Shown here: one piece after another, positions 1 to 27,867 of the stretch
Numbering within the stretch: position 1 is the first letter of the stretch
Layout: every line of letters begins with the position of its first letter
Virus record (IMG/VR): IMGVR_UViG_3300030103_005898
Location: 1-27,867 of that record
From: a virus
Length of the DNA: 27,867 bases
Reading direction: 5' to 3' (one strand)
Notes under the pieces: model-generated
Told to the model about the DNA's origin: nothing
Databases searched by the model: none
Seen by the model: only the letters and a program-made list of their open reading frames with translations
Translations under genes and position numbers: made by a program

Positions 1-10
1 GTGAGTGCAG
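1..10. repeat. 10-bp terminal direct repeat, left copy (candidate cos end)
   Basis: GTGAGTGCAG here is repeated exactly as the last ten bases of the window. A run of eight G follows a few bases later. Ten bases is a common cohesive-end length in siphoviruses, and the terminase small-subunit gene starts just inside the other end and reads away from it. I infer a cos junction. An assembly overlap is less likely because k-mer overlaps are normally much longer. Confidence 0.5.
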
Positions 11-1545: not shown

Positions 1546-1893
1546 ATGCCTAAGATTAGAGTACCGCGAGAGATCCAGATCCTCGCTAAGAGAGCAATAG
1601 ATTATAACCTAGAGCTACCCATTAGTAAAAGAGCATCCTATAAAGATGAGAAGGGAAAGAGAGTACCCGGTACCGGGATGAGAACTGCAAGGAGATTAAC
1701 CTCTGGAGAGGTAGATCTTAAGCAGCTAGAATTAATGGATGCTTGGTTCGCTAGGCATGGAGAGTCCGATAAAGAAGCGAAGGCTAGACAGGATAAGACC
1801 TCTAAGGCTGCTATAGCCTGGGCTCTTTGGGGAGGTACTCCTGCGAGATCTTGGGTTAAGCGTGCTATTAAGAGCCTTCGATCTAAGGAATAA
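1546..1893 (+). CDS. basic phage protein with AWFARH / IAWALWGG motif
   Basis: 115 residues, one of only two plus-strand genes. The ATG at 1546 is chosen because GGAGG ends five bases upstream; an in-frame TTG at 1534 lacks such a site. Ordered motifs are GTGMRTARRLTSGE, then MDAWFARHGE, then AAIAWALWGGTPARSWV. The pattern R.L..G..L.......M..(W/F)FARH....IAW.LWGG is one I recall from a small conserved domain in many phage proteins (DUF6321-like; number uncertain) of unknown function. The N-terminus is basic and helical. Its TAA stop lies inside the first ATAACACTA unit of the downstream repeat structure, so the repeat defines its C-terminus. Confidence 0.8.
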   Translation: MPKIRVPREIQILAKRAIDYNLELPISKRASYKDEKGKRVPGTGMRTARRLTSGEVDLKQLELMDAWFARHGESDKEAKARQDKTSKAAIAWALWGGTPARSWVKRAIKSLRSKE

Positions 1894-2146
1894 CACTAAA
1901 AAACATTAAAACTACAGAAGATAACACTAGGTATTTTCCGCGATAGTTGCGCTGCTACGGGCTAGATGCTCTGTTTTAATGGGGTTCCAGCCCTTCGCGT
2001 GTATATATAATATAAATAGATATATCAATTTATATTCTCTATATAAACTGATACTCAAAATAGGGCTATTTTTGGTACTTTGACCCCTATGGATCGAGGG
2101 TAGCGCAGAATAAACCTAGTGTTATCTTCTGTAGTTTTAGTGTTAT
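1890..2146. repeat. 33-bp inverted repeat with phased ATAACACTA units and AT-rich core (candidate replication origin)
   Basis: A 26-base perfect inverted repeat sits at 1907-1932 and 2114-2139. It extends to 33 bases per arm if one 10-base insertion in the left arm is allowed. ATAACACTA occurs at 1890-1898 and 1921-1929. Its reverse complement occurs at 2117-2125 and 2138-2146, with a degenerate fifth copy just after. Unit spacing is 31 bases on the left and 21 on the right, which is three and two helical turns. Between the arms, 2001-2057 is almost entirely A/T, like a DNA-unwinding element. The region is the only gap over 300 bases and lies beside the replication unit. An origin is favoured; a regulator array or a MITE-like insertion is possible. 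Confidence 0.6.
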
Positions 2147-2188
2147 CTAGTGTATTTTTTTATTATATCGAAGGATTTTGTACACAAA

Positions 2189-2216
2189 AAGAGCCCGGAC
2201 ATTACTCCGAGCTCTT
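2189..2216 (-). terminator. rho-independent terminator ending the early/replication unit
   Basis: On the minus strand AAGAGCTCGG, an 8-base loop, then CCGGGCTCTT form a ten-pair stem with one G-U pair, followed by five or more T. It lies 66 bases downstream of the C5-methyltransferase stop and ahead of the origin-like repeat. Confidence 0.8.
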
Positions 2217-2281: not shown

Positions 2282-3040
2282 TTAATCTCTAGCCTGGAGG
2301 ATTCCACTCTCCCAGAGCTTCCTCCCTATCCATTCTGAGCACTGAGGAACGATAGCATTCCCTAGGGCTCTTGTCATATCTTCACCCAATTTAAAGGGAA
2401 TCCCATTATGGGCTCTACACATAAAGGGCAAGGCTTCCCCTTGAATAGCGCGGATAAACTTACCTGCTTTCCAATCTGTATTCTCCTCTTCATGCTTGGG
2501 AGGGATATATCTCCTCGATCTCTGTAATCGGAGGCCAGAGGGGTAGGCAATCGCAAACCATCTGTCCCTCTTATGGGGAAGTCCGAAGGCTCCTGCCGAA
2601 GATATAGTACTCCATTCCGCATCATACCCGATCTGGGATAATGCTCCAAGTATTGCTCCGAGCCCTCGAATATTGATCGCTGGAGAGTTCTCCATAATAA
2701 CCGCTCTGGGCTGTAACTCATTGATAATACGATAGAATTCCCACCAAAGACCAGACTTTTTTCCATTTAATCCTTCTCCCTTTCCTGCGGTTGATATATC
2801 TTGGCAAGGGAATCCACCACATAGGATATCCACTTGCTCTACATTATTCTTTGTTATGTTTCTTACATCATCATAGATTCGAGCCTCTGGCCAATGCTTA
2901 GACAGTACCTTCTGGCAGAAGGTATTCTGCTCTACTTGCCATGAGGTATAAGAACCCGGTATCGCTCTCTCCAGTCCCAGCTCGAAGCCTCCAATCCCAG
3001 CGAAGAGGCTTCCGATACTGTATCTTCTTACCTCTTCCAA
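2282..3040 (-). CDS. DNA (cytosine-5-)-methyltransferase
   Basis: Transfers a methyl group from SAM to C5 of cytosine in duplex DNA. Motif I is SLFAGIGGFELGL (11-23), motif IV is GGFPCQDIS with catalytic Cys79, motif VI is MENSP (Glu117), and motif VIII is LPHKRDRWF (154-162). The C-terminus has RALGNAIVP (224-232). At 252 residues it is shorter than the usual 300-400, with a brief target-recognition segment (about 165-205), and motif VIII has HKRDR instead of the common QxRxR. It overlaps the VapE gene by 13 bases and is last in the early unit before a terminator. It probably protects phage DNA from host restriction; the site is unknown. A second ORF is nested in its +1 frame. Confidence 0.93.
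   Translation of the reverse strand: MEEVRRYSIGSLFAGIGGFELGLERAIPGSYTSWQVEQNTFCQKVLSKHWPEARIYDDVRNITKNNVEQVDILCGGFPCQDISTAGKGEGLNGKKSGLWWEFYRIINELQPRAVIMENSPAINIRGLGAILGALSQIGYDAEWSTISSAGAFGLPHKRDRWFAIAYPSGLRLQRSRRYIPPKHEEENTDWKAGKFIRAIQGEALPFMCRAHNGIPFKLGEDMTRALGNAIVPQCSEWIGRKLWESGILQARD
2374..2766 (-). CDS. nested +1-frame ORF resembling the companion protein of phage C5-methylases
   Basis: A 130-codon frame lies wholly inside the C5-methyltransferase gene, offset by one base. It has its own ATG preceded by AGAAGGATTAA, a reasonable Shine-Dalgarno. Its sequence is protein-like: WRTLQRSIFEG, EHYPRSGMMRNGVLYLRQ, LRLPTPLASDYRDRGD, GKQVSLSALF, and a C-terminal VEPIMGFPLNW. From memory, phage proteins annotated as cytosine methylases or methylase-associated carry W(K/R)T.Q..LF, WPRSGM..NG, PTP.ASD.RDRG, GKQ..LS and VEWLMGFP.GW in this order. 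Agreement with that order is what sets it apart from shadow frames of similar length. Overprinting is therefore inferred. Whether it is translated is not shown. Confidence 0.55.
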   Translation of the reverse strand: MEKSLVFGGNSIVLSMSYSPERLLWRTLQRSIFEGSEQYLEHYPRSGMMRNGVLYLRQEPSDFPIRGTDGLRLPTPLASDYRDRGDISLPSMKRRIQIGKQVSLSALFKGKPCPLCVEPIMGFPLNWVKI

Positions 3041-4302
3041 ATTCTCTTCCCATCTAGGATAACTTGCTTATATCCAGACTCTTTACAGATTTGAGCTATG
3101 CGCTTAGCGTTACCTGTATGCTGCTGGGATACTGGAAGATCTAAATAATGCATGATCTCAGTAGTATTGTTTTTTCCTCCTGCGATCGCCTCTCTTACTT
3201 TGATAGACCAAGGATCATCTATTATATAAGCCTGCTGTAGTTCTGAGAGCATCCGCTGGGATTCCCATTCTAGAAACCATATCGATCCTCCTAAGTATTC
3301 TTCTAGCCCTTCTGCAAAGATCTGCTCTCTCCACGTTCTAAGATAATCGAGATCTACCTGCTGACTTACTGTGATAGGCCATACTCTACGCTCCGGGCCA
3401 TCGCTTAAGAATTGGTAATTATTTGAAGTTCCAGCAAAAACTACTCTCCGAAGGTACGATTTAGGGAATTGCTGATAGGAAGGCCTAAATTTATCCTCTG
3501 CTGAAGAGATAAATGATTTAAAGTTATCTGCTGTTCTACCTTGGAGAGAGTGTAGCTCCGCAAGTTCCCATAACCATGTCTCTGTAGAATGAATTAACTC
3601 TAGAGAATCCTTCTTGCCTATATCTAGAGGGCTATCGCTAAACCAATCCTCTCCAATGAGAGCTTTTAATCCTGTACTCTTGCCCAAACCCTTCTCTCCG
3701 CAGAGAATAAGGAAGTTATCCATCTTGCATCCAGGCTTCATAACTCGAGCAACGAGAGAGATAATCCACTTAGAGCTCATCTCCTGTATCAGATGCTCAG
3801 AGCCCGGTATTATCTGCGCTCGGAATGCAGTTCGGAAGAGATTATGGATTCTAGGCTCTCCATCCCAACTAGGCAGATTAGTTACCCAGTCCTTAACATT
3901 CTCTTGGATGTTCTTATGGGCTACCCTTAGGACCGCTCTCTTAATATCTGGAGAGGTGTATCTGATATTGTATGCTCTCTCGATATGGAGTCCGATATCC
4001 TCGAGATCTGGATCCCATAACTCTCTCATCTTCCAGATTACTTTATTACTGTGATCGTTATAGCAGAGGCTCTCGTATACTGGATCATTCTCTAAGATGA
4101 GCGCGATATTGTTTCTATTTGCATACGGCTTGGGAGTTCTAGTAAGTTCTCCTTCTTTGTTATACTTCGCTTCTGATTTCTGCAGCATATCCCAAGTATC
4201 GATATTAGCTTCCTCTGGAGCGAACTTATACTCCGCTTCTATCCCAAGCTGCTTAGCTATCTCTTCCATTTTCTTTATCTGTTCTTTATTGATTGGTCTC
4301 AT
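3028..4302 (-). CDS. VapE/VirE-type P-loop ATPase (replication helicase-like)
   Basis: 424 residues. Walker A is CGEKGLGKST (201-210), a Walker B-like WLWELAEL lies at 243-250, and a sensor/arginine segment is FAGTSNN (289-295) followed by DGPERRVWP. The order and the upstream WDG.PRI (146-152) are typical of the virulence-associated protein E family (PF05272), which in phages and plasmids replaces a replicative helicase beside a primase. The C-terminal 60 residues look like a small helical/winged domain. GAGGAG lies eight bases before the ATG. The gene is coupled by an ATGA overlap to a 13-codon leader. With the primase at 4686-5528 it probably forms the replication initiation/helicase core. 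Confidence 0.88.
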   Translation of the reverse strand: MRPINKEQIKKMEEIAKQLGIEAEYKFAPEEANIDTWDMLQKSEAKYNKEGELTRTPKPYANRNNIALILENDPVYESLCYNDHSNKVIWKMRELWDPDLEDIGLHIERAYNIRYTSPDIKRAVLRVAHKNIQENVKDWVTNLPSWDGEPRIHNLFRTAFRAQIIPGSEHLIQEMSSKWIISLVARVMKPGCKMDNFLILCGEKGLGKSTGLKALIGEDWFSDSPLDIGKKDSLELIHSTETWLWELAELHSLQGRTADNFKSFISSAEDKFRPSYQQFPKSYLRRVVFAGTSNNYQFLSDGPERRVWPITVSQQVDLDYLRTWREQIFAEGLEEYLGGSIWFLEWESQRMLSELQQAYIIDDPWSIKVREAIAGGKNNTTEIMHYLDLPVSQQHTGNAKRIAQICKESGYKQVILDGKRIWKR

Positions 4303-4362: not shown

Positions 4363-4689
4363 TTATTGGTTATCGTTCTTACTGTGTTTTTCCTTGATAC
4401 GTAGCCTCCGCTCCGAGAGAGCATTCTCTGGAGTGGATCTAATTCCTCTTAAGATGAGCATATTATATTCTTCTCTAGTATCGCTTAATACTTCACAGAT
4501 AGCGAGGTATACATCTAGCTTAGGATATCTCTGACCGTTCATATAGGCCAAAAGAGTTGGAGTTTTCATTCCAATCCCCTTGGCTATCTGGTCTAGTCTC
4601 ATATCTTTGTACTCTGCATATCGGAAGATATGTAGACCGAAAGATGTACAATTCATCGGAATAAGTGGGACTTTTTTACTGCTTTTCAT
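4363..4689 (-). CDS. XRE-type helix-turn-helix protein
   Basis: 108 residues from the ATG at 4689, chosen because it overlaps the primase stop as ATGA and has TTGGAG eight bases upstream; an earlier in-frame ATG adds 11 residues without a good site. The HTH is about residues 27-60: MRLDQIAKGIGMKTPTLLAY, then MNGQRYPKLDVYLAICEVLS, the usual XRE layout of A..IG....L..(W/Y)..G...P. The tail is basic (ERRLRIKEKH). It sits between primase and helicase genes, so it could be an origin-binding or copy-control factor rather than a lysogeny repressor. This is inference from position. Confidence 0.8.
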   Translation of the reverse strand: MKSSKKVPLIPMNCTSFGLHIFRYAEYKDMRLDQIAKGIGMKTPTLLAYMNGQRYPKLDVYLAICEVLSDTREEYNMLILRGIRSTPENALSERRLRIKEKHSKNDNQ

Positions 4690-5528
4690 ATTAGGTTCTC
4701 CAAGTATCCCCACCATCCACATTTATTAACCCGGTTACAGTGAGGATATCTAACCGCGTGCATTAAATCAGGATCTATAGAATAATAGACTTCTCTCTTA
4801 TTGCAAGCTGGGCAAGTTATGTTCCGAGCTACATTCCCCTCTATACTTGCTCCTATCTGCTGAGCGAGGGCCCTTCTATATTCTGGATTATGGAATAGAG
4901 CCTCCATACCACTCTTCGAGCCTGCTCTCTTGCTCTCCCATCTCTTGTATCTTTTCTTGGGTTCCTCTTTTGGAATACAAGAATACTCCAACCGCAGAAG
5001 CCTTTCTCCTTTATGGGCCTTCGTTCTCTGTAGATCTGCATCCGTTCTATCTGGGATAGCGTAGCGATAATACATCCTAGCGCAATCATTAAGCGCGCTG
5101 CTATCCGGTTCTCCTTGCCCTACTATCTTATTCCATAACTCCTTGGCTGCCTTCGCTGCTCTCTTCCAATCTGCAGCAGGTATGGGAATTTCTAATGGAA
5201 GAACTATCCTCCACTTATTCATATCCTCAGTATGAGAAAAGGAGGTATGAGCTATATAATGATAATCTAAAAAAGCTGTATGGAAGGCATAATCTGTTCC
5301 ATCATCTAGATCGAATACTAGGCAGCTAATCTCTATAGCATGGGCTCCGCTTCTATTTCCTGCGAAGGAAGTAGGACTCCAGAGAGGTAAAGAGCCCTTC
5401 TCTCTCACTGGATAGGGTACTGCTGGGATCATAAGAGCTTGAGCGAGTTTTCGGAGATCTACTTCTGCTTCTACTGGGACCTTAGCGAACTTATTAGAAA
5501 AGGTGCTTATCTTAAACTTCTTATCCAT
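4686..5528 (-). CDS. AEP-family primase/PrimPol-like protein with C-terminal zinc finger
   Basis: 280 residues. An archaeo-eukaryotic primase-like fold is suggested by three ordered motifs: VFDLDDG (71-77, the metal-binding DxD), AHTSFSHT (93-100, the sxH motif) followed by KWRIVLPL, and a SSALNDCARMYYRYAIPD segment (143-160). The C-terminus has CPAC (239-242) and HCNRVNKCGWWG (263-274), giving four Cys and a His like a primase zinc ribbon. It probably makes primers and acts with the VapE-type ATPase. It starts with AGGAGGTACAGATG, a strong site. No phage DNA polymerase was seen, so the host replisome or this enzyme itself must extend DNA. Confidence 0.78.
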   Translation of the reverse strand: MDKKFKISTFSNKFAKVPVEAEVDLRKLAQALMIPAVPYPVREKGSLPLWSPTSFAGNRSGAHAIEISCLVFDLDDGTDYAFHTAFLDYHYIAHTSFSHTEDMNKWRIVLPLEIPIPAADWKRAAKAAKELWNKIVGQGEPDSSALNDCARMYYRYAIPDRTDADLQRTKAHKGERLLRLEYSCIPKEEPKKRYKRWESKRAGSKSGMEALFHNPEYRRALAQQIGASIEGNVARNITCPACNKREVYYSIDPDLMHAVRYPHCNRVNKCGWWGYLENLI

Positions 5529-5537
5529 CTGTACCTC

Positions 5538-6167
5538 CTAGAATAATTTAGTCTGCTTAGAGTGCTCGTTATACCTGGCCTGCGTTCTCTCGAAGTACTC
5601 CGAATCGAGTTCCCAAGCATCCAAATCGAATCCCAGATCGTAGCAAGCGCAAGCAATAGAGCCCGATCCGAGATGAGTATCCAGTATCTTATCTCCTGAA
5701 GAAGCGAACTTCTCTAAACACCATTTGTATAATTCGATAGGCTTCTGGGTAGGATGTATCTTCCCTCCTCTTCGATTATCGTACTTAAATAAAGGAGCAG
5801 GCTTATTAAAAGAGGTCCAGCCCATTTCCCACCCGGAGAAGTTCTCCCAAGGCTGCACCTTATCCCAAGCAATAACGCATCTAGTTGGAGGAAGGTTAAA
5901 ATAGTTCCCTCCCCAAATGATCTGCTCTTTACTTACTCTGAAGAGCTGCTCGAAGTATTCAACTGTTGGAGCTTGGTCCCATCTCTGGATCTTCGTATCT
6001 TGATTAAGGGATCTGTTTTTTAATTTTCCCGATCCTTGGAATGCAGAAGCAGTAGCTACTCCATAAGGAGGATCTACTATCGCTAGATCGTACTGGTTAT
6101 CCTCCATCTCTCTCATAGCCTGCAGAGAGCATCCGAGATGGAGATTAATGCTTGGATTATTCCTCAT
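5538..6167 (-). CDS. DNA methyltransferase, DPPY type (N6-adenine or N4-cytosine)
   Basis: 209 residues of the N6_N4_Mtase family (PF01555). The catalytic motif IV AIVDPPYGVA lies at 29-38, then a target-recognition region, HPTQKP at 138-143, and the SAM-binding motif ILDTHLGSGSIACAC at 161-175, where most relatives have DPFxGSGT. Motif IV before motif I is the beta-class order. DPPY favours N6-adenine methylation. GGAGGAGAGAAG precedes the ATG and the gene overlaps the RusA gene by 11 bases. With the C5 enzyme it gives the phage two kinds of base methylation, probably anti-restriction. No restriction enzyme partner is seen. Confidence 0.92.
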   Translation of the reverse strand: MRNNPSINLHLGCSLQAMREMEDNQYDLAIVDPPYGVATASAFQGSGKLKNRSLNQDTKIQRWDQAPTVEYFEQLFRVSKEQIIWGGNYFNLPPTRCVIAWDKVQPWENFSGWEMGWTSFNKPAPLFKYDNRRGGKIHPTQKPIELYKWCLEKFASSGDKILDTHLGSGSIACACYDLGFDLDAWELDSEYFERTQARYNEHSKQTKLF

Positions 6168-27857: not shown

Positions 27858-27867
27858 GTGAGTGCAG
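27858..27867. repeat. 10-bp terminal direct repeat, right copy (candidate cos end)
   Basis: GTGAGTGCAG, identical to bases 1-10. It lies 54 bases upstream of the TerS ATG. The bases in between (27805-27857) are mostly A and T on the minus strand and hold no clear promoter. Confidence 0.5.

Follow-up and report, generated by a model that had tools for sequence, protein, structure and literature searches.

The replication origins of SaPI elements contain two sets of iterons arranged around an AT-rich region. The ori of phage lambda lies within gene O, and iteron plasmids use Rep proteins that are not helicases. A SaPI origin with its Rep/PriRep initiator-helicase was reportedly described by Ubeda et al. 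in 2007 and 2012. The C-terminal domain of SaPI Rep recognises a short-iteron origin located directly downstream of the rep gene, apparently as two hexamers, and the C-terminal domain of the SCCmec protein Cch2 likewise binds iterons downstream of its helicase gene (PMC7581432). The SaPI type of iteron origin is already known as a kind. For the corresponding pattern downstream of VapE genes, we found no description in the searchable literature on VapE with iterons or origins, outside which many subscription papers lie.

Here we describe two inverted arrays of short repeats near the vapE gene of an uncultivated phage. The window analysed is an entire IMG/VR virus contig of 27,867 bases. A sequence-only reading of this window had proposed that an origin lies here and that a phage protein, for instance a VapE-type ATPase, binds it, and comparison across relatives, phages, satellites and plasmids supports that proposal. 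The paired repeats are very probably the replication origin of the phage. We further hold with good confidence that positions 1884-2162 would constitute an origin of the SaPI type, most likely bound by the C-terminal winged helix of VapE. The likely location of a replication origin is thereby provided for an uncultivated phage group.

Genome organization

The first and last ten bases of the window (1-10 and 27858-27867) are identical (GTGAGTGCAG), and the small-terminase gene starts 63 bp from the right end. Illumina adapter sequence in one relative (L022) begins at the point corresponding to the window end, and the sequence of another (L017) continues through the end junction. The window is probably a complete linear 27.86-kb genome of the cos type with short cohesive ends. 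Most genes point leftward, with terminase, portal, head and tail genes and an endolysin-like gene followed by a replication block that encodes HTH proteins, RusA, an N6/N4 methylase, a primase-like protein, a VapE-type helicase (PF05272) and a C5 methylase. Pfam and PHROGs scans of about 30 ORFs recognised no integrase, recombinase or partition gene, and a search for close DNA relatives among named phages found none. The repeat region contains no tRNA and has no Rfam match near gathering thresholds. Convergent with vapE is a gene for a 115-aa protein that has no Pfam or PHROGs match; distant relatives of this protein occur in hundreds of viral contigs.

Two mirror-image arrays of phased iterons

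Four perfect ATAACACTA units (Table 1, units L1, L4, R4 and R2) with spacings of 31 and 21 bp had been recognised previously, as had a 26-nt perfect inverted match said to be far beyond chance. Both descriptions are accurate, and first-order Markov simulations of the window (n = 60) gave no match longer than 15 nt. The core of ~155 bp between the arms includes the 57 bp of AT-rich DNA (84% AT) that had also been pointed out. The proposed 10-base insertion in the left arm has to be abandoned, however, since the two arms align without gaps over 62 nt (82%; 1884-1945 with 2101-2162), and the supposed insertion is a diverged iteron unit. An outer unit of the right arm, AATACACTA, had been overlooked.

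Each arm is composed of four ~10-bp units whose starts are spaced by 10, 11 and 10 bp in mirror orientation (1890, 1900, 1911 and 1921 on the plus strand; 2156, 2146, 2135 and 2125 on the minus strand). Two or three units per arm are strong and the others are degenerate, and the same slots in relatives often hold better units (e.g. AATACACTAGATAACAGTAAAAATACACTAGATAACACTAGG in L006). Because both arms are four-unit arrays, the structure extends over about 1884-2162. Elsewhere in the window, ATAACACTA with one mismatch allowed occurs at chance level (9 found versus 6.85 expected). The GC-skew plot that had been suggested as a check shows no inflection near 2 kb in the window; skew tracks gene direction and is therefore uninformative as an origin marker.

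Table 1. Features of the proposed origin and its surroundings (window coordinates).
Feature	Position	Strand	Remarks
115-aa protein gene, convergent with vapE	1546..1893	+	highly conserved in nearer relatives
Left arm of inverted repeat	1884..1945	+	62 nt, ungapped pairing with 2101-2162
Iteron unit L1 ATAACACTA	1890..1898	+	overlaps stop codon of 115-aa gene (1891-1893)
Iteron unit L2 AAAACATTA, degenerate	1900..1908	+	within supposed insertion; units occupy this slot in relatives
Iteron unit L3 ACTACAGAA, degenerate	1911..1919	+	TACACTAG in several relatives
Iteron unit L4 ATAACACTA	1921..1929	+	
Core hairpin GGGCTGGA...TCTAGCCC, ~19-nt loop	1958..1994	-	end points approximate; covarying pairs in relatives
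AT-rich core, proposed DNA-unwinding element	2001..2057	.	84% AT; highly conserved in close relatives
Conserved core block AAAGTACCAAAAATAGCCCTATTT	2058..2081	-	
Right arm of inverted repeat	2101..2162	-	ungapped pairing with 1884-1945
Iteron unit R4 ATAACACTA	2117..2125	-	
Iteron unit R3 ACTACAGAA, degenerate	2127..2135	-	
Iteron unit R2 ATAACACTA	2138..2146	-	
Iteron unit R1 AATACACTA	2148..2156	-	
Intrinsic-terminator-like hairpin	2189..2216	-	end of vapE/methylase transcription unit, before proposed origin
C5 cytosine DNA methylase gene	2282..3040	-	between vapE and arrays; missing from this position in several relatives
VapE-type helicase (PF05272), proposed initiator	3028..4302	-	modelled winged helix, residues ~366-423
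Putative primase-like protein, replication module	4686..5528	-	weak PHROGs primase matches

Short arm-like repeats on either side of a ~155-bp core also give the region an outline like that of a lambda-type attP, in which short arm repeats flank a core. The arrays might accordingly be read as arm-type integrase sites of a temperate phage. That reading is hardly probable at all: the integrase it requires was not recognised among the ~30 ORFs of an apparently complete genome, the arrays adjoin vapE rather than an integrase gene, and DnaA boxes accompany them in relatives. Moreover, a vapE profile scan covering one genome for each of 84,980 species found only one weak relative, although the host may be unrepresented. 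An interpretation of the AT-rich palindrome as a telomere-resolution or Xer dif site was also considered; the palindrome sequence is not kept in more distant array-bearing relatives.

Comparison with known origins and a proposed mechanism

The likeness to SaPI origins, drawn from descriptions and homology, lies in a VapE that is homologous to the initiator-helicase and in an origin of multiple short iterons that follows the helicase gene directly. Here, 4+4 short iterons surround an AT-rich region downstream of the putative initiator gene. The locus differs in that it belongs to a tailed phage in which no integrase was recognised and the primase-like gene is separate, in having its own unit sequence, in that a methylase gene may intervene between vapE and the arrays, and in the DnaA boxes of some relatives. 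The SCCmec pattern-2/Cch2 system is also similar; there too a putative origin follows an AAA+ helicase gene, whose product binds the iterons through its C-terminal domain (PMC7581432). However, Cch2 represents another helicase family (D5_N/Primase_Cterm), its iterons are just three 5-nt AAGTG sequences, and the flanking inverted repeats of the SCCmec origin are dispensable for binding. In lambda-type and plasmid iteron origins (O/Rep), too, iterons are placed by an AT-rich unwinding region, and DnaA boxes are found in some relatives of the present phage; the present locus differs in its pair of mirror arrays downstream of a helicase gene.

We infer a mechanism in which VapE, most likely by way of its C-terminal winged helix, would bind eight ~10-bp sites that lie on one DNA face in two helically phased arrays of mirror-image orientation. 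By analogy with SaPI Rep and Cch2, one VapE ring would assemble on each array, each facing the other. The rings would then melt the AT-rich DNA between the arrays, self-load as helicases and travel away from each other, and synthesis would be primed by host enzymes and the primase-like protein of the phage. The sequence features on which this origin activity is proposed are the arrays, their phasing and conservation, their position after vapE, homology to PriRep1, and clusters of DnaA boxes in some relatives.

Arrays downstream of vapE in uncultivated relatives

Searches of IMG/VR for vapE yielded 32 and then 80 loci, which were clustered into 37 independent loci. If the origin proposal is correct, related phages should carry arrays beside the same genes, and inverted arrays were indeed found 3ʹ of vapE in 31 of the 37. 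Each of the 31 exceeds the 99th percentile of the scores from 394 control windows; the median score is 22 downstream of vapE and 11 in the controls (Mann-Whitney p = 8e-15 for this comparison). No such array pair was found after vapE in L149, L150, L160, L161 and L164, and the contig of the sixth exception (L013) ends before reaching the region. The sequence-only reading had named the absence of the repeats from close relatives that keep the replication genes as grounds for refutation. This was not observed among close relatives whose contigs extend far enough past vapE; all of these carry the homologous region 3ʹ of vapE, whether or not the methylase gene lies between. When IMG/VR was scanned with the ATAACACTA pattern, the meaningful matches among the loci examined were vapE relatives, and a degenerate pattern of the core block AAAGTACCAAAAATAGCCCTATTT matched only in vapE relatives.

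The arrays lie 97-1355 bp 3ʹ of vapE in relatives and ~870 bp away, across the methylase gene, in the window. In more distant relatives the sequence has changed completely and the architecture of two inverted arrays is retained, with arrays of 20-76 nt and cores of ~140-235 bp in most (58 bp in L014 and 66-150 bp in the most distant relatives); the core is AT-rich in nearer relatives. Units at the same position have different sequences (ACACTAG, ACAGATA, ACACGTAA, ATCAGATA, CCACATAA and AAGACAACC). The clade with 69-77% VapE identity uses ACAGATA, clades with 41-47% identity use AATACACGTA, AAATCAGATA, AATACACCAA and CCACATAAA, and loci with 31-36% identity use AAGACAACC, TTCCTAACC and TTGCCAACC. 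Arrays persist even at 31-36% identity, where vapE is the only shared early gene detected. Autocorrelation of 88 arms has peaks at 10, 21 and 31 bp, which correspond to the helical repeat.

The DnaA box TTATCCACA has a density of 0.45/kb over the 1.4 kb that follow vapE versus 0.04/kb elsewhere in the 37 independent loci, with the boxes coming from six loci (2-7 boxes each, often 10-22 bp apart). One locus of the redundant set, L108, has eight strict boxes. Such clusters may recruit or titrate host DnaA. There is no strict DnaA box in the window, which counts against the origin reading, and the window's own clade mostly lacks them. Dense clusters of perfect boxes at or close to the arrays were noted in L108, L109, L123, L132-L134, L140-L145, L154, L160 and L161, those of L160 and L161 being 2-3.6 kb after vapE.

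The core between the arms

The minus-strand hairpin of the core (GGGCTCGA/TCGAGCCC in relatives) is preserved in three clades. Changes on both sides were seen in 4 of 10 tested pairs, a count that none of 500 shuffles reached and that compares with at most 2 in slid controls; this covariation lends moderate support, because each changed pair rests on a single sequence. The hairpin might be a transcribed element (RNA) or a single-stranded structure for priming or initiation.

A covarying hairpin in the gap between convergent genes would also suit a site of transcription control or partition, that is, an operator array, a bidirectional terminator or a centromere. We regard this as very improbable given that a separate terminator-like hairpin is present (Table 1), that distant phages carry arrays after vapE despite co-directional downstream genes, and that the scan of about 30 ORFs recognised no partition gene.

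A locus that counts against the origin reading is L014, which lacks most of the AT-rich core although its arrays and VapE are kept. The segment concerned (L014:12259-12442) retains both arrays, the hairpin and an intact VapE without ~100 bp of AT-rich core that is present in the closely related L108/L109; either a natural deletion or an assembly artefact would account for this. Separately, a block outside the iterons, GGTCAAAGTACCAA, is shared by the window (about 2070-2087, minus strand) and L017 (about 6142-6156). Seen in VapE orientation, one clade has it beside the left array, the other beside the right array.

VapE as the candidate initiator

A profile search with VapE matched PDB entry 7PDS ('similar to D. 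nodosus vapE', with dsDNA; E = 7e-39), which, going by the entry name, we take to be a SaPI Rep of the PriRep1 type. The AlphaFold model of VapE (pLDDT 87.7, pTM 0.74) gave chains of 7PDS as its six best Foldseek matches (E 2e-21 to 2.4e-24; TM 0.62-0.68 by query length), and the last ~58 residues are modelled as helix-helix-helix-strand-strand, the layout of a winged helix. Homology thus places VapE among putative self-loading AAA+ helicases of the Rep/PriRep1 type. That its nearest solved relative is the SaPI PriRep1 initiator-helicase, whose iterons lie just downstream of rep, strengthens the original proposal of an origin at this site.

Of the early proteins, only VapE was detected at all array-bearing loci (L166, L023 and L168 among them), a result that arises partly by construction because the loci were found through vapE. 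Across 34 loci, iteron similarity correlates with VapE identity in the C-terminal (rho 0.735), N-terminal (0.708) and AAA+ (0.695) regions, and the partial correlation is 0.37 for the C-terminus versus 0.18 for the rest of VapE. As a sign of the binder, the correlation with the C-terminus is weak evidence that is confounded by shared ancestry. On balance, VapE probably binds the arrays.

Alternatively, the protein that binds this origin could be the 115-aa neighbour or an HTH protein, and VapE would then be recruited later as the helicase. The 115-aa gene adjoins the arrays and is co-conserved in nearer relatives, and the identity of its product tracks iteron similarity about as well as the VapE C-terminus does (partial correlation 0.36 with the VapE C-terminus controlled for, over the 21 loci in which 115-aa, RusA and primase-like genes are also present). 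However, no 115-aa or HTH gene was detected in L163, L166, L023 and L168, all of which have arrays, and arrays also occur in named phages and plasmids whose neighbouring genes differ. In addition, the 115-aa protein is ~73-82% identical throughout four different iteron types. Binding by one of these proteins is therefore unlikely, and VapE is retained here as the preferred binder.

The Walker A motif of VapE (window residues 202-210) reads GSKGMRKST or GDKGMRKSS in L017, L018 and L021 instead of GEKGLGKST. The glycine preceding the catalytic lysine is arginine in the clade with 44-46% VapE identity.

Named phages, satellites and plasmids

With some reserve, we favour a general model in which PF05272 VapE helicases of phages, satellites and small plasmids from many bacterial phyla would be self-loading initiators, with the origin just 3ʹ as two inverted arrays phased at 10.5 bp and with iterons co-evolving with the C-terminal winged helix. 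The recurrence of the vapE-downstream architecture with clade-specific units is the part most worth following. If the model is true, it would provide a readable code for initiator-origin specificity, and the sequence alone would suffice to locate origins in hundreds of genomes. VapE-encoding elements would gain a simple annotation rule, the code for iteron recognition by the initiator would become testable, and 'virulence-associated protein E' would usually be a replication initiator.

The same pattern occurs in cultured phages, satellites and plasmids, some of which are tractable in the laboratory. As controls, streptococcal satellites and plasmids took the place of SaPI1 and other toxin-bearing islands. 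We assembled 24 annotated phage or satellite records and scored a record as positive if its best inverted repeat directly after vapE was well above controls or if two-orientation iterons were evident by eye. About a dozen of the 24 are positive. They comprise the staphylococcal phages phiSa2wa and phiSP15-1, Marinobacter PS3, Paenibacillus Dante, Enterococcus phiFL4A, APSE-1, Lactobacillus LfeSau, S. pneumoniae phiARI0468-2, S. thermophilus CHPC1282, Pseudomonas U5 and Corynebacterium StAB, as well as the satellites Javan292 and Javan86. Iterons in two orientations directly follow vapE in Dante, phiFL4A, APSE-1, LfeSau, phiSa2wa, PS3, Javan292 and Javan86.

Several named phages join the five uncultivated loci in counting against the origin reading, in that no array pair was found after vapE: Croceibacter P2559Y, Bacteroides/Phocaeicola phages (BV200P1, EMB1), Bcep781, FoX3, ECOO78, Leuconostoc 1-A4 and a Coprococcus phage. 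The vapE-downstream rule is therefore not universal in position.

As elements that have to replicate, plasmids provide a useful independent test. Both pKNA06 and phiCFAL8171I carry iterons in both orientations directly after vapE. Nothing was found in the 0.9 kb past the annotated vapE stop of the 5.8-kb plasmid pAL20115c; inside the annotated vapE gene, however, the cluster of its commonest 9-mer and the best inverted repeat of the whole plasmid lie just 3ʹ of the VapE match. In these array-bearing plasmids, vapE is likely to encode the Rep protein.
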